Of a stretch of DNA of 64,000 bases, positions 41,141-51,212 are shown in pieces. This DNA is from Thermanaeromonas toyohensis ToBE (GTDB taxonomy: Bacteria; Bacillota; DSM-521; Neomoorellales; Neomoorellaceae), in NCBI RefSeq assembly GCF_900176005.1, contig NZ_LT838272.1:1569587-1633586 (forward strand). Direction: 5' to 3'. Positions within the stretch are counted from its first letter, which is position 1. Each line of letters begins with the position of its first letter. A program made the position numbers and the translations under genes. The notes below the pieces were generated by a model, which worked only from the letters and a program-made list of their open reading frames with translations, was not told where the DNA came from and ran no database searches.

Positions 41141-41360
41141 GCACTAGGCCGTCTACACTTAAAAGGCAACCCCTCAAGGCAATGTTCCTTGCCTTGATGA
41201 AATGGGGCCGGAAAAGGCCGGGGGAGGGCCCGGAGGCGCCCGCTAAGGCCCCGAAAAGCGCTCAAGGCAACGCGGAAGCGGGTCTTTTCTGAGGCAGCTG
41301 GGGAGCATATATACATCAACTTTCCCCTGGTCCTTCCTGACCCATTAAGTTTTGGTGCGG

Positions 41361-41376
41361 TATACATCGATGTATA
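41361..41376. repeat. 16-bp perfect palindrome, copy 1
   Basis: TATACATCGATGTATA occurs here and again, identically, at 44183-44198. It is one of the set of palindromes clustered around the recombinase gene. It lies in about 550 nt with no gene. Confidence 0.85.
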
Positions 41377-41709
41377 AAAAACTCCTGCGGCGGGGAAGAC
41401 TTGTTCCCACCTTCACAAGCAGGTTGCCTTGCGTAAAAGACAGCTGATGAAAGAAAAGATGTATTAACTGCATAATTTCTTAATCTCCCGAACTCCTCCA
41501 ACTGTCGTTTGGTGCAAGCTGGGTGTCCCTACCGGCGGTACTTACCCTACGTACCCCCACCCGCGACGCGCTCTTTTGGCCTTATTTTTTTGGGTGGATA
41601 AAAGCGGTAAAATAATCAGCCCTAGAAAATCAAGGCAAAGCGGGTTGGAATAAATTAGTAAAAATCGGGGTCTGCCCTGCCTGGTGCCAGAAAACAACGA
41701 CCGCAAAAG

Positions 41710-41799
41710 TGCCAGATTCTGGGGTTTACGACGTAAACTGTTGCGTTTACGGACTTTTTAAGGCGGCGGTCTACGGAGACGTGAGAGTCCGTAAACGCA
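41710..41799. repeat. palindrome unit A (GTTTAC type)
   Basis: The unit reads GCCAGATTCTGGG, then palindrome GTTTACGACGTAAAC (41724-41738). Next comes TGCGTTTACGGAC (41742-41754), and 32 nt later its exact inverse GTCCGTAAACGCA (41787-41799). The two arms could form a 13-bp hairpin. The same layout with other letters is found in unit B, 125 bp downstream. Confidence 0.8.
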
Positions 41800-41834
41800 C
41801 CGGCTGAGGTGGGCCCAAAAGGTCCGCTTCAGAA

Positions 41835-41922
41835 TGCCAAATTCTGGGGTTGACGTCGTCAACTGGTGCGTTGACGGACTTTTGCCGGACCACGGTGCGT
41901 GAGATGGTGTATGTCCGTCAAC
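41835..41922. repeat. palindrome unit B (GTTGAC type)
   Basis: Flanks match unit A (GCCAAATTCTGGGG; GTGCG; GGACTTTT). The palindrome is GTTGACGTCGTCAAC (41849-41863), the direct half is GCGTTGACGGAC (41868-41879) and the inverse is GTCCGTCAAC (41913-41922). Every half-site has G where unit A has T, with the pairing base changed as well. A further GTCCGTCAAC lies at 42071-42080. Confidence 0.8.
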
Positions 41923-41949
41923 TACACTGTGAACCCCGGCATAATCCGG

Positions 41950-41978
41950 TTGCGCTCCCGGGCGCAGGCGTATATAAT
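41950..41978 (+). promoter_or_regulatory. promoter of small RNA copy 1
   Basis: TTGCGC, 17 nt and a perfect TATAAT give a strong housekeeping-type promoter. The same 29 nt recur at 42187-42215. It lies 27 nt downstream of the inverse half-site of unit B. Confidence 0.8.
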
Positions 41979-41984
41979 AACCCC

Positions 41985-42050
41985 CGAGGACTACAAGCAG
42001 GTCATCACCCAAGGGGCCCCGGAGGGGTGAGAAACCCTTCCGGGGCTTCC
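41985..42050 (+). ncRNA. small RNA candidate, copy 1
   Basis: Transcription from the promoter above would begin near 41985 and run through GGACTACAAGCAGGTCATCA into a GC-rich hairpin (42016-42046, GCCCCGGA pairing with TCCGGGGC). There is no open frame with a ribosome-binding site. The T run after the hairpin is missing in this copy, so termination may be weaker than in copy 2. Function unknown. Confidence 0.55.
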
Positions 42051-42158
42051 GCGTGCCGCAATTGGCAGAAGTCCGTCAACAAAGTGTTAGACGCCTGTTA
42101 AGGGGTTGTTCATTCAGGGTCGGTAGCAAGAATGGGTTTGAGGATCTTATCGACCGGC

Positions 42159-42174
42159 GTTCACTCGAGTGAAC
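42159..42174. promoter_or_regulatory. palindromic operator candidate upstream of small RNA copy 2
   Basis: GTTCACTCGAGTGAAC is a perfect 16-bp palindrome that ends 12 nt before the -35 box of the second small RNA. It is preceded by CCGGC, giving GGCGTTCAC, which echoes GCGTTTAC and GCGTTGAC of units A and B. Confidence 0.7.
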
Positions 42175-42186
42175 ATGGGCTTCACC

Positions 42187-42215
42187 TTGCGCTCCCGGGC
42201 GCAGGCGTATATAAT
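42187..42215 (+). promoter_or_regulatory. promoter of small RNA copy 2
   Basis: The sequence is identical to the copy 1 promoter: TTGCGC, 17 nt including CCCGGGCGCAGG, then TATAAT. Confidence 0.8.
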
Positions 42216-42221
42216 AACTTC

Positions 42222-42293
42222 GGGGACTACAAGCAGGTCATCACTCAGGGGCCCCGGAAAGGCCATTCGCCTCTCCGGGGCCCCCGCTTTTTT
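42222..42293 (+). ncRNA. small RNA candidate, copy 2
   Basis: The predicted transcript of about 72 nt contains GGACTACAAGCAGGTCATCA as in copy 1. It ends in a strong hairpin (GGGGCCCCGGA pairing with TCCGGGGCCCC) followed by GCTTTTTT. Promoter and intrinsic terminator so close together, without a coding frame, indicate a small untranslated RNA. No known RNA class was recognised. Confidence 0.62.
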
Positions 42294-42300
42294 GGCAGCC

Positions 42301-42375
42301 TTAGAACGGTGATATGAAACTCAGTTCTGCAGCAGGCAAAAGACATCGTTCTATTTCTCTAGAACGTTCGTTCTA
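42301..42375. repeat. GTTCTA/TAGAAC site cluster
   Basis: Half-sites TTAGAACG (42301-42308) and CGTTCTA (42347-42353) lie near the palindrome TAGAAC-GTTC-GTTCTA (42360-42375). One palindrome plus spare half-sites is the same design as in units A and B, with unrelated letters. Confidence 0.6.
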
Positions 42376-42424
42376 AAACCAATATGCTGCTGGCCGCACA
42401 AACGGAAAACGTTTTCACGCTAAC

Positions 42425-42482
42425 CCGTGAGTCCGTGAAGAAAGGCAGCGGGGGTCCGTGAAAAAATTTTTCACGGCCGTGA
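42425..42482. repeat. CCGTGA site cluster
   Basis: CCGTGA occurs at 42425, 42433, 42456 and 42477, with inverse TCACGG at 42471. The middle part is a perfect 21-bp palindrome (42456-42476): arms CCGTGAAAAA and TTTTTCACGG around a central A. Confidence 0.7.
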
Positions 42483-42567
42483 AAGGCAAAATTTGGACGC
42501 TTTAGGGGAGCCTGCCTGATTCCGCCATCAGGATTCCGCTCGGAGCCTTCTACCGGGATCAGCCATT

Positions 42568-42608
42568 TTGTCCGCTTGCGCGGACAATTTTGTCGCGCGC
42601 GTGACAAA
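42568..42608. repeat. two adjacent palindromes TTGTCCGC and TTTGTC types
   Basis: TTGTCCGC and GCGGACAA flank TTGC (42568-42587). TTTGTC and GACAAA flank GCGCGCGT (42589-42608). The second ends directly at the -35 box of the next candidate promoter. Confidence 0.65.
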
Positions 42609-42776
42609 TTCACCCGCCGGCAGCAGTATCGCTATGATATACTTTTAGATGACAGAGCCCGCCGCGCCTCTTGACGTGGTGAGCGTCAATGCAGACCAGG
42701 GCGGGACACCTTCATAACTCCTTACCCCCTTTTCGGTCCCCGGGGAGTTATAAACTCTCCCGGGGTTTTTGCTTTG
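42609..42776 (+). ncRNA. third small transcription unit candidate
   Basis: TTCACC, 18 nt and TATGAT (42633-42638) form a plausible promoter. The RNA would contain a TTGACG/CGTCAA hairpin near 42673-42692 and ATAACTCC (42714-42721), which can pair with GGAGTTAT (42744-42751). Its end is a terminator hairpin (CCCCGGG with CCCGGGG, 42738-42765) and TTTTTGC. The GGAGTTAT partner overlaps the terminator stem, so the two structures exclude each other. No coding frame is supported. Confidence 0.45.
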
Positions 42777-43058
42777 TAAATCAGTGGTGGCCTTTTGAGG
42801 GGTTATTCCGGTCTGGGCTACTACCTTACGAACTGGTTAGTATTTGCGTCCGAGGCGGAGTTAAGAAACTCCTACACAGAGCAGGCCTCCGTCTGAAGGG
42901 CACTTCCCGCGGGCAGTTCTATCAGGGAGGCAAACAGAGGGCTGCCAGGGCAGGTCTCCAGGCGCAGTTCTACCGGTAGAAGTTTTTGAGCACTTCGGCA
43001 GCCAGTACTGTATTTCAGGGCCTTGTTTTAATTAAATCCATGAAAGGAGTGAGCTTAA

Positions 43059-43937
43059 GTGAGCGAAACCTTTGACCGCTACTTTTCCCACCTGAAGGAC
43101 ACTGGCTCCTCCGCGCACACCGTCTCCGGCTACCGCAAGGACCTTTTAGCCTTCGCCTCCTGGTACCGGGGCACTTTCGGGGAGGACCCGGAGCCCGAGA
43201 AAATCACCAGCATAGACCTCCGTGAGTACCAGGGCTGGATGCGGAACGTGAAGGGGCTAAAGCCCAACACGGTAAACCGCCGAATGAAGGCGGTGAAGTC
43301 CTGGCTGTCCTGGTGCGTGAACCAGGGCTTGGCCCCCAGGCTCCCGGACTTCCCGAAGGGCGTCCCGGAGGCCAGGCGGGCGCCCCAGGCCCTGGAGAGG
43401 GCCGAGGTCAACAGGCTGCTCAGGGAGGTCGAAAGGGAGGGCGACCCCAGGGACGCCGCACTGATAAGGCTGATGCTCTCCTGCGGGTTAAGGGTGTCCG
43501 AAGCAGTATCGCTGAGGCTGGAGGACGTGGACGTGGGGGAGAGGCACGGGGTAATCGTGGTCCGGAGCGGGAAAGGGGGCAAGTACAGGGAAGTACCTGT
43601 ACCGCCCGCCGCAAGGAGGGCCCTCCGGGAGTGGCTGGCGGTCAGGGAAAAGAAATATCCCAGGTCCCCCTGGCTGTTCCCCGGGGCCACAGACGACAGG
43701 CCCCTCACGCCCGGGGCCGCCTGGCGCATTGTGAAAAAGTACGCCTGGAAGGCCAGGATATCGGATTTACACCCCCACACCCTGAGGCACACCTGCGCCA
43801 CGAACATGCTCCGGTCCGGGGCAAACCTGGTCGAAGTGGCGTCGGTGCTGGGCCACGCCAGGCTGGACAGCACGGCGGTCTACACCAGGCCCTCCGTAGC
43901 GGACCTCGCCCGGGCGGTGGAGAGGGGGGAGGCGTAG
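43059..43937 (+). CDS. XerC/XerD-type tyrosine recombinase
   Basis: The 292-residue protein has an N-terminal SAM-like core-binding domain (FDRYFSHLKDTGSSAHTVSG, LKPNTVNRRMKAVKSWLSW) and the catalytic domain. The active-site residues are R in CGLRVSEAVSLRL, K in GKGGKYREVPV, HTLRH, then GHARLDSTAVYTR with the nucleophilic tyrosine. It could integrate or excise the element or resolve multimers. GTG at 43059 follows AAAGGAGTGAGC. It is the only intact recombinase in the window and stands in the middle of the palindrome field. Confidence 0.93.
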   Translation: MSETFDRYFSHLKDTGSSAHTVSGYRKDLLAFASWYRGTFGEDPEPEKITSIDLREYQGWMRNVKGLKPNTVNRRMKAVKSWLSWCVNQGLAPRLPDFPKGVPEARRAPQALERAEVNRLLREVEREGDPRDAALIRLMLSCGLRVSEAVSLRLEDVDVGERHGVIVVRSGKGGKYREVPVPPAARRALREWLAVREKKYPRSPWLFPGATDDRPLTPGAAWRIVKKYAWKARISDLHPHTLRHTCATNMLRSGANLVEVASVLGHARLDSTAVYTRPSVADLARAVERGEA

Positions 43938-43949
43938 CCTGGCGTGAAA

Positions 43950-44018
43950 TGTCCAGTCAGGCATCCCTACTGGAAGGAACCTGGGGGTAATTACAAAAGG
44001 TGTCCAGTCGACTGGACA
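43950..44018. repeat. TGTCCAGTC half-site and 18-bp palindrome after the recombinase
   Basis: A half-site TGTCCAGTC (43950-43958) lies just behind the recombinase stop. The full palindrome TGTCCAGTCGACTGGACA is at 44001-44018 and runs into TTTTATTC. It may serve as terminator, operator or recombination-related site. Confidence 0.7.
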
Positions 44019-44050
44019 TTTTATTCTTCAAGGATTTCTCGCAAAGCAGC

Positions 44051-44198
44051 CTTTATGCTTAATTAGCGGTTCATTCCACGCGGAATACTTTTCACCCCCG
44101 GCCTATCGCAGGGTCGGGGGAAAGGAGTATTTCATACCTCAGGGACTTTTACGGAGCAACTTCTGCGCTTAATTACCCACTTTATACATCGATGTATA
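44051..44198. repeat. units C and D: same flank, different palindrome
   Basis: Unit C has GCTTAATTAGCGGTTC before ATTCCACGCGGAAT (about 44074-44087). Unit D has GCTTAATTACCCACTT (44167-44182) before TATACATCGATGTATA (44183-44198). The flank is shared and the palindromes differ; the second is identical to that at 41361. Confidence 0.6.
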
Positions 44199-44202
44199 TC
44201 TT

Positions 44203-44243
44203 CCGAGGCCGACCTGGCCCAGGCGGTGGAAAGGGGGAGGCGT
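44203..44243 (+). pseudogene. 3'-end remnant of a second recombinase gene
   Basis: GCCGACCTGGCCCAGGCGGT and the following GGAAAGGGGGAGGCGTAG match the 3' end of the recombinase (ADLARAVERGEA and stop), with a few changes and one base missing in the G run. Nothing of the rest of the gene remains. Confidence 0.65.
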
Positions 44244-44248
44244 AGCGG

Positions 44249-44272
44249 AAAGTATCGCGCGCGCGATACTTT
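44249..44272. repeat. 24-bp perfect palindrome
   Basis: Arms AAAGTATCGCGC and GCGCGATACTTT meet without a spacer. It lies 6 nt after the recombinase 3' remnant, as the TGTCCAGTC palindrome lies after the intact gene. Confidence 0.85.
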
Positions 44273-44315
44273 GGCCGGCCTGGCCCGGACGGGGAGGGCG
44301 AGGGCTGCTGTTTGA

Positions 44316-44411
44316 AATTGCCTGTGAAAATCGGCAATTTTGCCGGAATGCATAAACAATTTGCTTCCAAAAATTACCCGCAAAAATCGGTAATTTTGCC
44401 GAAATTTGCGG
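44316..44411. repeat. units E and F: AATTGCC and AATTACC types
   Basis: Unit E: AAATTGCC, TGTGAAAATC, GGCAATTTTGCCG (44315-44345). Unit F: AAATTACC, CGCAAAAATC, GGTAATTTTGCCG (about 44371-44401). The GC pair of E is replaced by AT in both arms of F, so pairing is preserved. Confidence 0.6.
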
Positions 44412-44440
44412 TAAGGAACTTCCAGTACTGGTAAAAGGTG

Positions 44441-44476
44441 TTTATCAAATTCGGCAAGATTGTCAAAATTGATAAA
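44441..44476. repeat. TTTATCAA inverted repeat
   Basis: TTTATCAAATT (44441-44451) and AAATTGATAAA (44466-44476) are near-perfect inverse arms 14 nt apart. Confidence 0.5.
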
Positions 44477-44500
44477 GTAACAATATTTTTCAACTTCAGG

Positions 44501-44553
44501 GGCTAAAGTGTTACTCGAGTAACAAAAAGTATTACTCGAGTAATACTTTAGCC
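44501..44553. repeat. two CTCGAG-centred palindromes nested in a larger inverted repeat
   Basis: TGTTACTCGAGTAACA (44509-44524, 16 bp perfect) is followed 2 nt later by a 24-bp perfect palindrome (44526-44549, arms AAAGTATTACTC and GAGTAATACTTT). GGCTAAAGT (44501) and ACTTTAGCC (44545) enclose both. Confidence 0.8.
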
Positions 44554-44561
44554 GCGAAAAG

Positions 44562-44590
44562 GTATTAGCCGAAAGTATTAGCCGGCCAAT
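44562..44590. repeat. GTATTAGCCG repeats with GCCGGC palindrome
   Basis: GTATTAGCCG occurs at 44562 and 44575. The second copy continues into ATTAGCCGGCCAAT, a 14-bp palindrome with one mismatch pair. Confidence 0.5.
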
Positions 44591-44626
44591 AATGGGGACG
44601 CCTGGCAAAAAGTTTGAGCGGGGCAT

Positions 44627-44694
44627 GTTGACTCAAGTCAACTGCGTCTACAATAGCCTTCAAATACGTCTTTGATAACATTTCCTGAGTCAAC
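44627..44694 (+). promoter_or_regulatory. palindrome overlapping a promoter, with spare half-site
   Basis: GTTGACTCAAGTCAAC (44627-44642) contains the -35 box (GTTGAC or TTGACT), and TACAAT (44649-44654) is the -10 box at a 15-16 nt spacing. A protein on the palindrome would block the promoter. Half-site GAGTCAAC lies at 44687-44694 in the transcribed part. Confidence 0.55.
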
Positions 44695-44753
44695 ACAGCC
44701 CACACATCAGTAATCGGTACCGGACGGTGCTATTCGTCGTTTTTAAAGTCTTA

Positions 44754-44779
44754 AAATTTATCGCCCGGGCAATAAATTT
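44754..44779. repeat. 26-bp palindrome before a small gene
   Basis: Arms AAATTTATCGCCC and GGGCAATAAATTT differ at one pair only. It ends 8 nt before the GTG of the following open frame and could be its operator. Confidence 0.65.
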
Positions 44780-44786
44780 GGGTTAG

Positions 44787-45035
44787 GTGAGTTCGGAGAG
44801 GGGTGTGACACAGGTGAGAAAAAGGCTAAAGCTAAAAAGCGCACTGCTCATGGAAGCCCTGGCGCGCGGCGTGGTTTCCGTGGGCGGTCTTGACCGTGCA
44901 GTCTACGGCGGGTCGCCCGGGGACCGGAGGGCCAGGGGTAGGGTCGCGGGACTGCGATATGATACGATAAGGCGAAGAAAGCGTTCGGATAAGTCTCTAG
45001 AAAAGCAAGCTATTGGGTTGATAGTAGAGCATTGA
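44787..45035 (+). CDS. small basic hypothetical protein
   Basis: An 82-residue, Arg/Lys-rich protein (VRKRLKLKSALLMEALARGV, GGSPGDRRARGRVAGLRYDT) with possible winged-helix character but no recognised family. GTG at 44787 follows GGGTTAGG; GTG at 44803 or 44814 are alternative starts. The only candidate DNA-binding gene inside the palindrome field other than the recombinase, so it may bind one of the sites; this is speculative. Confidence 0.42.
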   Translation: MSSERGVTQVRKRLKLKSALLMEALARGVVSVGGLDRAVYGGSPGDRRARGRVAGLRYDTIRRRKRSDKSLEKQAIGLIVEH

Positions 45036-45084
45036 TTTTTTGGGATGGTTCGAATATAATTGAACCTGAGCGGAGTAAGCGAAG

Positions 45085-45220
45085 CCCGGGGGTGACATCA
45101 AGCGTTAACAGGTTTCCCAGGGACGGTTAGGTACTGCTTTTTGCATTTTTAAAGCCGAAAGCAGGTCGCACGCACGGCCCCGGGAGGGGGTGACATTGGG
45201 CGTTAACACCTTCCGGGGAG
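45085..45220 (+). repeat. tandem pair of GTGACAT-GCGTTAAC units
   Basis: CCCGGGGGTGACATCAAGCG with TTAACAGG (45085-45112) and CCCGGGAGGGGGTGACATTG with GGCGTTAACACC (45178-45211) are diverged copies 93 bp apart. In the second, GGTG/CACC and CCCCGG/CCGGGG form a hairpin followed by TTTTTGTGTTTTTTG, so it can terminate transcription. Confidence 0.55.
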
Positions 45221-45282
45221 AGAGGTTTTTGTGTTTTTTGACGTCGCTGTAGCGGCGGCTTTTATTTTTTTTGTAAAAGGGA

Positions 45283-45576
45283 GTGGCCTGTGTGGCTTCT
45301 GTGCCTGTACGTTTTCGCTCTCTTTTTTGGGACACCGTGCCCGAAAGCTTGGACACGGAAAAACACAAAAGGTACATTATAGAGCGCGTGCTGGAATTCG
45401 GCGACGAGGATGCCTATCGGTAGTTATTTGCAACTTATACAGACGAAGAGATTGTTGCGGTAGTTAAATCCAGCAGGCAGATATCTCCGCGGACGGCAGT
45501 TATGATGGCCAATTTTTACGCTATTCCTTGGGAGCAAGTTACATGTTTGCGGAGTGTATTTCTTCCGAGGCCCTAA
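45283..45576 (+). pseudogene. DUF6922-like antitoxin, in-frame stop
   Basis: The frame reads VRFRSLFWDTVPESLDTEKH, KRYIIERVLEFGDEDAYR, a TAG at 45421, then LFATYTDEEIVAVVKSSRQI and SPRTAVMMANFYAIP. This is the pattern of the small protein encoded before AbiEii-type nucleotidyltransferases (DUF6922), in which Trp is usual where the TAG stands. The rest of the frame is intact, so the lesion is young. Confidence 0.68.
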
Positions 45577-45909
45577 GTTTGCTGGAGACGTTAGAGAAAG
45601 CAGAAAGTTTTCGCTCTATGGGATTTTACCTTGCGGGCGGTACAGGTTTAGCGGTGCAACTCGGTGACTTTCGAAGAGCTGAAAGGTATTGTCGAGCAGA
45701 AATACTCTGGTGTACGTTATAACTGGCTTCATTTGGTTCGGAGTCTCGGATACTTTGTCGATGCCGAAGAAGATCCCATGCCGGTACTAACAGTGTCGGG
45801 CGAGATGAAAGAAATGACTGCGCAAGAGTGGGAAAAAATAAAGCAATTTTTTACGGAGCTCCAGAGGGAGGCTCTTCTTGAGATACGGCAACGGGGACTA
45901 CGTTTTTAA
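45543..45909 (+). pseudogene. AbiEii-like nucleotidyltransferase toxin, internally deleted
   Basis: ATG at 45543 opens SSEALSLLETLEKAESFRSM with GFYLAGGTGLAVQLG, the N-terminus of an AbiEii nucleotidyltransferase. It then jumps directly, in another frame from 45664, to VTFEELKGIVEQKYSGVRYN and the C-terminal helices ending LREALLEIRQRGLRF-like. The catalytic DxD part is deleted. Together with the preceding gene this is a dead toxin-antitoxin pair. Confidence 0.7.
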
Positions 45910-45963
45910 CTGTTTTGGGGTCTGTTCCGAAACGCAGGTGCAATTTAAGTAGCCCCAAATCGT

Positions 45964-45989
45964 CTGGTAGCTACCAGCAGACTGGTAGC
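45964..45989. repeat. CTGGTAG palindrome plus half-site
   Basis: CTGGTAGCTACCAG (45964-45977, perfect 14 bp) is followed after CAGA by half-site CTGGTAGC (45982-45989). Again one palindrome with an extra half-site, in letters unlike the other clusters. Confidence 0.7.
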
Positions 45990-46300: not shown

Positions 46301-47362
46301 ATGAATTTTTCGCAATTGTCATACACTGAAATGAAAGTACGACTTGATGAGCTTCGGGAGAACCCGTGGAACTTTTTTCGGGCGGCAGACCCGGAGGAAG
46401 TGAGAGAGCTGGCGCTGAGCATAAGGGAGCACGGGCTGCTGCACCCGATAGTGGTGCGGCCTGTGGAGGGTGGGTATGAGATAATATCGGGCCACCGGCG
46501 GAAGCAGGCGCTGGAGTACCTGGGTGTCAAAGAAACGACTGTAAGGGTAGTTGAAGTAGACGACGTTGAAGCGGAGTTGATGCTGATAGATGCTAACCTG
46601 GAGAGCAGGGCATTATCTCCGATGGAGGTGGCCAGGGCGATAAGGCGGAAGAAGGAGCTGATGGGGGAGAGGAGGGGAAGAAAAGAGCGCAATAATTGCG
46701 CTAATTATTCGGGGAAGACGAGTCAGTTGCTCGCATCAGAATTTGGTTTAAGTCCCCGGCAGATAGAAAACTACGACAAGCTCAACGACCTGATTCCTGA
46801 ACTGCAGCTTCTGGTAGAGAGGGGCAAGCTGAAACCCACAACAGCAGTCCACATAGCGTCCTGGCCCCCGGAGGCGCAGCGCGACCTGTACGAAGCCCTG
46901 GGGGACGAGATAGCGGAGCTTAAAGTAAAGGAGGTGATGAAGCTAAAAGAAGAGAGCGAGAGGGGATACTTTGTATTGAGAATCCTGCAGAGGAAGCTGG
47001 AGGAGGTGGAAGCGAGGCTTGCGGAATACACCCAGGCAGAAGAGTTGAAGGAGAACCTGAAAGAGGAGATAGCGCGCCTCCGGCTGCAGAAGAAGCAGCT
47101 GGAGTACGACATCATCGACCGGCAGAACGCCCTTAAGGCCCTTGAGAACCGGGCGGTGAAGAAGGGGGCGGCCCTGATAGAGCTGCTTGAGCGTTTGTGC
47201 CGTCCGGTGCAGGCGGCCCTGCCGGACATAGAGCACTACCTCGGGGAGGGTCTGGAGGACGAAGCGTTCCGGGCCTATGCCCTGAGGTGGGCGGCTGTGT
47301 TGAGGCAGGCGGCGCTCTTAATAGAGGAGCGCCTTCAGTCTAAAATGAGGCGGGTCAAATAG
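46301..47362 (+). CDS. ParB/RepB-like partition protein with coiled coil
   Basis: The N-terminal ParB nuclease-like/CTPase domain is clear (LRENPWNFFRAADPEEVREL, SIREHGLLHPIVVRP, GGYEIISGHRRKQALEYLG). The helix-turn-helix is FGLSPRQIENYDKLNDLIPE and LKPTTAVHIASWPPEAQRD. Residues 220-290 form a long coiled coil (RKLEEVEARLAEYTQAEELK, LRLQKKQLEYDIID). No ParA is next to it, so it may regulate or mark DNA rather than partition, or work with a ParA elsewhere. ATG at 46301 follows AAAAGGGGGGGTAAATGA. Its target could be one of the nearby palindromes. Confidence 0.85.
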   Translation: MNFSQLSYTEMKVRLDELRENPWNFFRAADPEEVRELALSIREHGLLHPIVVRPVEGGYEIISGHRRKQALEYLGVKETTVRVVEVDDVEAELMLIDANLESRALSPMEVARAIRRKKELMGERRGRKERNNCANYSGKTSQLLASEFGLSPRQIENYDKLNDLIPELQLLVERGKLKPTTAVHIASWPPEAQRDLYEALGDEIAELKVKEVMKLKEESERGYFVLRILQRKLEEVEARLAEYTQAEELKENLKEEIARLRLQKKQLEYDIIDRQNALKALENRAVKKGAALIELLERLCRPVQAALPDIEHYLGEGLEDEAFRAYALRWAAVLRQAALLIEERLQSKMRRVK

Positions 47363-51115: not shown

Positions 51116-51212
51116 GTTTCAATTCCTCTTAGGTAGGCTGGAAACGAAGCTGGAAGTTTTCCGGTACCTCTGCGAGGAAGCGGTTTCAATTCCTCTTAGG
51201 TAGGCTGGAAAC
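51116..51212 (-). CRISPR. orphan mini-CRISPR: two repeats, one spacer
   Basis: Two identical 30-nt repeats (51116-51145 and 51183-51212) flank a 37-nt spacer (51146-51182). On the plus strand the repeat begins GTTTCAATTCCTC and ends AGGCTGGAAAC. On the minus strand it begins GTTTCCAGCC and ends with AATTGAAAC, the usual 3' end of type I-B/III repeats, so crRNA would be read leftwards. No cas gene is in the window and no third repeat is present. It may use host Cas proteins. Confidence 0.85.

Follow-up and report, generated by a model that had tools for sequence, protein, structure and literature searches.

A field of unlike palindromes in Thermanaeromonas toyohensis as candidate recognition sites for many ParB-type proteins

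The 64,000-nucleotide stretch of the Thermanaeromonas toyohensis ToBE genome analysed here (the window) contains a 4.6-kb field of palindromic sites which are of one kind, with a common skeleton and a common half-site spacing grammar, and which evolve by changing all half-sites together. We propose that these are about 19 recognition sites of different specificity for ParB-type proteins, meaning DNA-binding proteins with a ParB/Noc/KorB-like HTH that plasmids, phages and integrative elements encode, and that they would act as parS mimics; judged from sequence, we give this reading an even chance. The identity of the sites is well supported; their function we infer, with partition piracy or incompatibility as the most likely use of the candidate mimics. 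The first of the meanings offered in the preliminary description of this DNA, namely that the sites are the set of specificities of a DNA-binding protein family that is diversifying, is strongly supported: the palindromes have a common skeleton, their half-sites change in concert, and some of them match palindromes found inside ParB-type genes.

A common skeleton and spacing grammar

All palindromes recognized in the initial reading proved real. Those at 41361, 41724, 41849, 42159, 42456 (two nested), 44001, 44183, 44249, 44509, 44526 and 45964 are perfect or odd-centred perfect, while those at 42360 (TAGAACG-TT-CGTTCTA), 42568, 42589, 44332, 44388, 44441, 44577, 44627 (one mismatch) and 44754 (94%) are imperfect or gapped; a palindrome at 42968 (TTCTACCGGTAGAA) had escaped that list. 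As originally claimed, only 41361 and 44183 are identical. The comparison with shuffled sequence proposed at the time gave a clear answer: between 41301 and 46000, 13 palindromes with arms of at least 7 were observed versus 0.67 ± 0.82 (maximum 4) in 200 dinucleotide shuffles of this stretch, and 9 versus 0.16 with arms of at least 8. So did the comparison with the rest of the genome, in which 20 stretches of 20 kb yielded 49 palindromes per 400 kb and at most 3 in any 4.7 kb. Measured against the density in non-coding sequence alone (0.19 per kb, 90 kb), the count has a Poisson probability of ~1e-11. The extra half-sites are real as well, being found within 150 bp of 14/22 field palindromes versus 40/407 elsewhere (Fisher 7e-9).

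The sites had been called unlike each other, which is true of the palindromes as such but not of their skeleton and spacing grammar. When aligned by their centres, the field palindromes reveal a hidden common skeleton, TNTNACNC·GNGTNANA (the dot marks the centre), which is close to ParB parS and Noc sites and is not present among 402 background palindromes. Its information content is 2.88 bits versus 0.87 ± 0.25 (maximum 2.16) in 20,000 draws of background palindromes, and its match to the positions common to parS and Noc sites was reached by none of 100,000 such draws. T is enriched at −8 and −6 and C at −3 and −1, with some sites that do not fit, and a central CG occurs in 11/16 field sites versus 77/402 background palindromes. 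The field thereby shows the parS-type combination of a 16-bp palindrome, a T-rich outer arm and a central C·G. The palindromes of Burkholderiales Bsr parS, for instance, also measure 16 bp, are T-rich at their ends and have CG in the centre (PMC5450999), and the likeness to ParB parS, Noc NBS and Bsr parS (PMC7383237, PMC5450999) extends from the 16-bp length, T-rich 5′ end and central CG to the variation of family members at a few mirrored positions. In contrast to normal ParB/parS, Noc and Bsr systems, where one specificity is repeated near its own parAB, every site in the field differs; moreover, the field favours A at position 5 where parS has T, and it adds half-sites at 21 and 51–59 bp, which are not usual in parS.

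These half-sites lie at fixed distances of 21–22 and 51–59 bp within units of unrelated sequence. Such distances were seen in 21/28 field pairs versus 1/43 background pairs, in a count where field pairs are not all independent and the distance bins were chosen afterwards. The two distance classes are significant, whereas a 10.5-bp helical phasing of half-sites is not.

One example of concerted change is given by sites B (41724–41799; palindrome GTTTACGACGTAAAC, half-sites at +21 (41745) and +58 (41790)) and C (41849–41922; palindrome GTTGACGTCGTCAAC, half-sites at +21 (41870) and +59 (41916), and another at 42074), paralogues with 88% identity over 49 bp in which the same base is changed in every half-site. 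The other example is the paralogous pair J1 and J2 (44315–44411; AAATTRCC..GGYAATTTTGCCG), where the change is compensated and the core, CAA-n-TTG, is that of the in-gene sites of the subfamily to which the window's own ParB belongs. A half-site is seen at 51 bp in site A (41310–41376; half-site TATACATC at 41310, palindrome TATACATCGATGTATA at 41361–41376, second copy at 44183–44198) and in site G (43950–44018; TGTCCAGT at 43950, TGTCCAGTCGACTGGACA at 44001), at 52 bp in site M (44627–44694; AGTTGACTCAAGTCAACT with half-site TGAGTCAAC) and at 18 bp in site O (45964–45989; CTGGTAGCTACCAG). The site termed lex (42302–42375) has half-sites at 58 bp (42302) and 22 bp (42347) from its palindrome at 42360–42375, and site E (42413–42484), with nested palindromes CCGTGAAAAAATTTTTCACGG and TTTCACGGCCGTGAAA, has them at 21, 44 and 56 bp. 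Further sites are D (42159–42174; GTTCACTCGAGTGAAC), F1 and F2 (42567–42608; TTGTCCGCTTGCGCGGACAA, and TGTCGCGC·GCGTGACA at 42591), P (42912–42981, plus strand; half-site AGTTCTATCAGG at −53 from the palindrome at 42968), I (44249–44272; AAAGTATCGCGCGCGCGATACTTT), K (44441–44476; an interrupted inverted repeat, TTTATCAA..TTGATAAA), L1, L2 and L3 (44509–44591; TGTTACTCGAGTAACA, AAAGTATTACTCGAGTAATACTTT and TATTAGCCGGCCAATA, respectively; the outer arms of L2 and L3 are common with site I) and N (44754–44779; AAATTTATCGCCCGGGCAATAAATTT).

Template switching, in which quasi-palindrome correction perfects random inverted repeats, would make arms and neighbouring half-sites uniform, which is what units B and C show. 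Such a mutational artefact is already disfavoured by the skeleton test and appears very improbable, since it can neither give a skeleton common to unrelated sites or exact in-gene matches elsewhere, nor confine the field to a single 4.6-kb stretch. The hairpins of RNAs that had been considered at the outset also explain less. On that view each unit, with its arms a, a′, a, a′, might fold into either of two hairpins, as in an attenuator; the arms do covary, and the four-arm order permits alternative pairings. However, no Rfam family was found in the field, a stem with a T run is not the rule among the sites, there are no general U-tracts, and terminator-like tails, present after few sites, exceed shuffles only mildly. 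An RNA stem would also leave unexplained the fixed, ParB-like T-T-AC-C·G skeleton, the 21-bp spacing and the identity with in-gene sites of DNA-binding proteins, and we regard a structured RNA as improbable.

Matches to palindromes inside ParB-type genes

ParB-type genes of mobile elements often have an internal palindrome, whose codon position is constant and whose sequence varies by member. In 787 kb of the same genome, only two of the 50 even palindromes match the field (≤1 mismatch), each of them located within a mobile parB gene. Site F2 is 15/16 identical to the palindrome within a mobile parB-methyltransferase gene (G000:1402874), while the half-site and palindrome of site P (14/14 core) recur with identical spacing inside another mobile parB gene (G000:1450497), the 53 bp being kept exactly and the intervening sequence having decayed (17/41 identical). 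By these matches, the two genes are probably cognate to F2 and P. Two further sites exactly match in-gene palindromes of phage HTH/coiled-coil genes from IMG/VR, namely, site D that of L154 and site G that of L153. These genes are homologous and have the matching palindromes at one and the same codon position, where each member of the family has a different palindrome, and the HTH of this phage family aligns with that of ParB (hhalign 90%, E 1e-6). In the subfamily of the window's ParB-family gene (46301–47362, plus strand; own in-gene palindrome AGCGCAATAATTGCGCT at 46686–46702), the palindromes are likewise at a constant place. This regularity provides a reusable rule which yields candidate protein-site pairs straight from sequence, so that the evolution of ParB specificity becomes directly testable.

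A candidate cognate gene was found for only 4 of the ~19 field sites. IMG/VR scans of A, E2 and L1 gave chance-like matches only, in unrelated genes apart from E2, which matched once between genes and once in a ParB-methyltransferase gene, at its far end. The L1/L2 pattern had one outside match in 398 genomes, in an unrelated membrane-protein gene, and a ParB_N search of 299 relatives listed mostly chromosomal ParB and was uninformative on mobile ones. The phage HTH/coiled-coil family was not found in the genome itself or in 249 relatives, and an AlphaFold model of the phage protein, dominated by its coiled coil, gave no informative PDB match.

Gene remnants, the recombinase and regulation

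Around most field sites no gene survives. DNA searches of this genome and its relatives returned fragments only and no second field, so far as is known a feature of this one genome. The main alternative to parS mimics is that mobile parB-type genes inserted here successively and eroded, their in-gene palindromes persisting without function today. In line with such a history, site P lies within a decayed parB-like segment, an 18-codon piece of a mobile parB gene, 83% identical and containing a stop, remains at 44697–44750 on the minus strand, and the same stretch holds a decayed nucleotidyltransferase-like gene and two decayed copies of the 3′ end of the field's recombinase gene (44202–44246 and 44273 to about 44307, plus strand) with site I between them. 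Yet the palindromes are perfect and a half-site with its exact spacing is kept although the DNA in between is scrambled; profile and tblastn searches detected no HTH remnant around sites other than P; 3.7 kb is too small for ~19 genes; and B/C and J1/J2 were duplicated within the field and diverged in concert. Erosion alone we therefore view as possible but on the unlikely side.

The XerC/D-like tyrosine recombinase (43059–43937, plus strand), originally placed at the centre of the field, is probably incidental, because homologues with 83% and 76% identity lack such a field and its relatives include plasmid recombinases; none was seen at the homologue loci L035, L036, L039 and L081. That the palindromes are attachment or attC-like recombination sites of this enzyme seems the most improbable explanation of all: the gene is indeed flanked by the two identical palindromes (41361 and 44183), but a single recombinase would not have sites so short and so different, the two close homologues do without them, and the protein scores best as XerC/XerD, with XerC as the best model and the integron-integrase model TIGR02249 at 86.6 bits, far under its cut-off of 265.

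ParB and KorB proteins are also transcriptional repressors, and the palindromes might be operators through which the element's own regulators govern small field genes. Of the two copies of a small ORF, one has its start codon directly after the end of site D, and the start of the second is overlapped by a C half-site. Nevertheless, such a regulatory hub is unlikely: the window has few regulators for ~19 specificities, hardly any genes lie in the field, the small ORFs lack conservation, and the real repeated operator of these elements is a different palindrome, GGTACGCGCGTACC. Besides ParB, the window encodes a coupling protein, an ALP actin-like segregation ATPase, ArdC and a replication-relaxation protein (Replic_Relax), a context in keeping with a mobile, putatively integrative element.

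Possible uses and related systems

As parS mimics, the field sites could work as follows. An incoming element would supply a ParB-type protein, which the matching field site would load; the partition machinery of the newcomer would then be shared by the host element, and the extra centromere would unbalance or expel the newcomer (centromere incompatibility), with each site working against or with one competitor class. The earlier suggestion of an immunity or incompatibility code between related elements fits this scheme. If true, a single element could hijack or exclude many competitors via centromere mimicry, as a broad plasmid defence or for hitch-hiking. To our knowledge, such defence or hitch-hiking has so far been described for single specificities only.

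At least four sites match docking sites in genes elsewhere, and the locus may therefore be a heritable, multi-specificity library of the centromeres of other elements, kept for defence or piracy, an extension that we offer tentatively and consider rather doubtful. Each site would then be specific to one class of plasmid, phage-plasmid or conjugative element, whose partition protein it would capture, and the array would grow through site duplication and concerted change, comparable to a CRISPR spacer set in logic though not in mechanism. Since site P resembles a gene remnant, some sites may be relics instead of acquired mimics.

Among known systems, SGI1 pirates the IncC ParABS through parS mimicry, its parS-like sites stabilising SGI1 and destabilising the other replicon (PMC10954446). 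It is an integrative element, as the carrier of the field may be, with parS-like inverted repeats and without being the source of the ParB; in contrast, SGI1 has two copies of one specificity, whereas the field, known from its sequence, has ~19 candidate specificities in 4.6 kb. Staphylococcal oriT mimics (PMC8136818) are similar in that mobile elements carry mimic sites for several distinct helper systems, but their role is in conjugation instead of partition, and a plasmid has few of them. The phage HTH-coiled-coil genes of PHROG_15609/DUF3102 have in-gene palindromes of the same kind, including the two identical to D and G, with the difference that there is one palindrome per gene, inside it, while the field includes sites that have no gene; the phage in-gene sites also come without extra half-sites. 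For an HTH_17/coiled-coil gene of an Ammonifex plasmid, no clear pattern was seen in relatives; the gene itself has CTGGACA half-sites both inside and upstream, suggestive of the same logic.

Density and spacing of the field palindromes

Perfect palindromes whose arms reach 7 bases or more number 13 between 41301 and 46000 of the window, compared with an expectation of 0.67 (maximum 4) from 200 dinucleotide shuffles. Sampling 400 kb of this genome gave 0.58 per 4.7 kb and never more than 3 in such a span, and the rate for non-coding sequence alone is 0.19 per kb. The concentration seen in the preliminary description stands out against both shuffled sequence and the genome sample. Once imperfect and gapped palindromes are counted, the total reaches about 20, essentially the set originally listed plus one at 42968 (site P). 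The extra half-sites (single palindrome arms) said to accompany most palindromes are indeed present within 150 bp of 14 of 22 in the field, versus 40 of 407 elsewhere. No second such field was found in the stretches of this genome examined.

An arm and its same-orientation extra half-site lie 21-22 or 51-59 bp apart in 21 of 28 field pairs versus 1 of 43 background pairs; the field pairs are partly non-independent, with units B and C being paralogous and nested palindromes counted twice, and the distance bins were set post hoc. This spacing was seen in every one of the unrelated units A (41361), B (41724), lex (42360), E (42413-42484), G (44001), M (44627), and P. Units B and C (41849) are duplicates in which one and the same base has changed in each half-site, and a similar compensated change distinguishes J1 from J2 (44315-44411).

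A common skeleton and its likeness to parS

Centre-aligned, 16 non-redundant even palindromes lying outside the recombinase gene (43059-43937, forward strand), share T at -8, T at -6, A at -4, C at -3, and C at -1. Their information content totals 2.88 bits versus 0.87 ± 0.25 for equal-sized background sets (maximum 2.16 in 20,000 draws), and on a separate score over the positions common to chromosomal parS, the docking site of ParB, and Noc sites (NBS), the field value was reached in 0 of 100,000 draws. The skeleton and the distance classes were spotted before testing, a bias that measuring total information content and scoring against parS/NBS both reduce. The field sites are of one kind.

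By our reading, sites D (42159), L1 and L2 (within 44509-44591), and G appear to match the wording of a quoted description of parS-type sites. Two mirrored positions distinguish ParB from Noc sites (PMC7383237), and in our own alignment these seem to correspond, by position, to variable positions of the field. In contrast, parS has T at one position where the field sites prefer A. Interpretation as regulatory operators, RNA hairpins, recombination sites, or template-switch artefacts would explain less.

Palindromes inside ParB-type genes

All three mobile parB genes of this genome contain a palindrome, as do 6 of 12 related plasmid parB genes. In the window ParB gene (46301-47362, forward strand) and three plasmid parB genes, it falls at the same residue of the alignment; all four have the core CAA-n-TTG, and their outer bases differ. 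Judging from this position and variation, the in-gene palindromes may be the cognate sites of their ParB-type genes. Across 787 kb of this genome there are 50 even palindromes, and only two come within one mismatch of a field palindrome; random palindromes do so in 9 of 5000 cases. Each of the two lies within a mobile parB gene, one at G000:1402874 and the other at G000:1450497. The latter gene and site P (half-site at 42912) have an identical 12-bp half-site, both at -53 spacing, whereas only 17 of the 41 intervening bases are identical.

Exact scans of IMG/VR returned one match to site G and two to site D. Three further field palindromes gave chance-looking matches only, which sets the background rate. 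The G match and one D match lie inside homologous phage genes (proteins 32% identical), in the same place directly past the HTH. Other PHROG_15609 members carry different palindromes exactly there (TTTGTCCACTCGAGTGGACAAA, TTTGTCCAACCGGTTGGACAAA, and further imperfect ones), and in a DUF3102 gene of a Paenibacillus phage that same post-HTH place is occupied by TTGCCGATACGTATCGGCAA. By hhalign, the PHROG_15609-family profile aligns with the ParB HTH (90%, E 1e-6).

We consider the field sites to be probably docking sites for ParB-type proteins of many specificities; the analysis covers a field in one genome, with putative cognates for four sites. The main rival, a graveyard of parB-type genes, would leave such sites behind as remnants and draws partial support from site P; against it stand the density of the sites and the fact that they are perfect, with their spacing kept, amid otherwise scrambled DNA. 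The recombinase gene aside, the surroundings of the sites yielded neither an HTH gene nor a clear remnant of one, with two exceptions: a weakly parB-like stretch at site P and a parB fragment of 18 codons (44697-44750). As docking sites, the array could widen to many partners or competitors the parS mimicry of the integrative element SGI1, whose two mimics bind IncC ParB, making SGI1 more stable and the plasmid less so (PMC10954446); SGI1 addresses one ParB, whereas the field would hold many putative specificities.

In the PHROG_15609 and DUF3102 phage genes, the palindrome occupies one fixed codon, with member-specific sequence, beside the varying recognition helix (L156-L164, near 2250; L165:2218; L154:9211), possibly a ready-made recognition code. 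The HTH_17/coiled-coil gene of Ammonifex plasmid pADEG01 (L085:3665-3990) has a palindrome and several CTGGACA half-sites, upstream and in the gene; CTGGACA is also the half-site of site G.

Setting of the field and other repeats

Chromosomal genes lie on the left of the window. Further right are genes for a coupling protein, an actin-like protein, ArdC, ParB, and a replication-relaxation protein, along with MoxR/vWA genes; these mobile-type genes suggest that the field lies inside an integrated plasmid-like or conjugative element. A decayed gene (45330-45910) resembling one in another genome (G048:C7:14130-14915) looks by eye like a nucleotidyltransferase/AbiEii-type toxin remnant. A duplicated 74-bp module (41950-42023 and 42187-42258, one copy frameshifted) comprises a terminator and a tiny ORF (LRSRAQAYIIT..) for which no clear homologues were found. 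A G/C-rich stem and then a T-rich tail come after the motif GGGTGAC-N4-GCGTTAAC, which occurs at 45086-45151 and 45184-45220 and in sequence stretches L057, L059, and L067 (at 909); the several copies lie in mobile regions, and the unit, without Rfam match, is a candidate attenuator or small RNA. The short conserved non-coding stretch CTCCAACTGTCGTTTGGTGCAAG (41496-41524) recurs in an intergenic region 88 kb off (L003:1501-1529).

The palindrome GGTACGCGCGTACC has seven copies with 0-1 mismatch, at window 52822 and at G000:C1 1394973, 1402517, 1425815, 1431550, 1432517, and 1476849, all within 1.39-1.62 Mb, and looks like an operator common to the conjugative-type elements there. Two CRISPR-DR2 repeats lie at 51116-51212; a long CRISPR array at ~1.4165 Mb of the chromosome (L066 16500-18000) has a different repeat.
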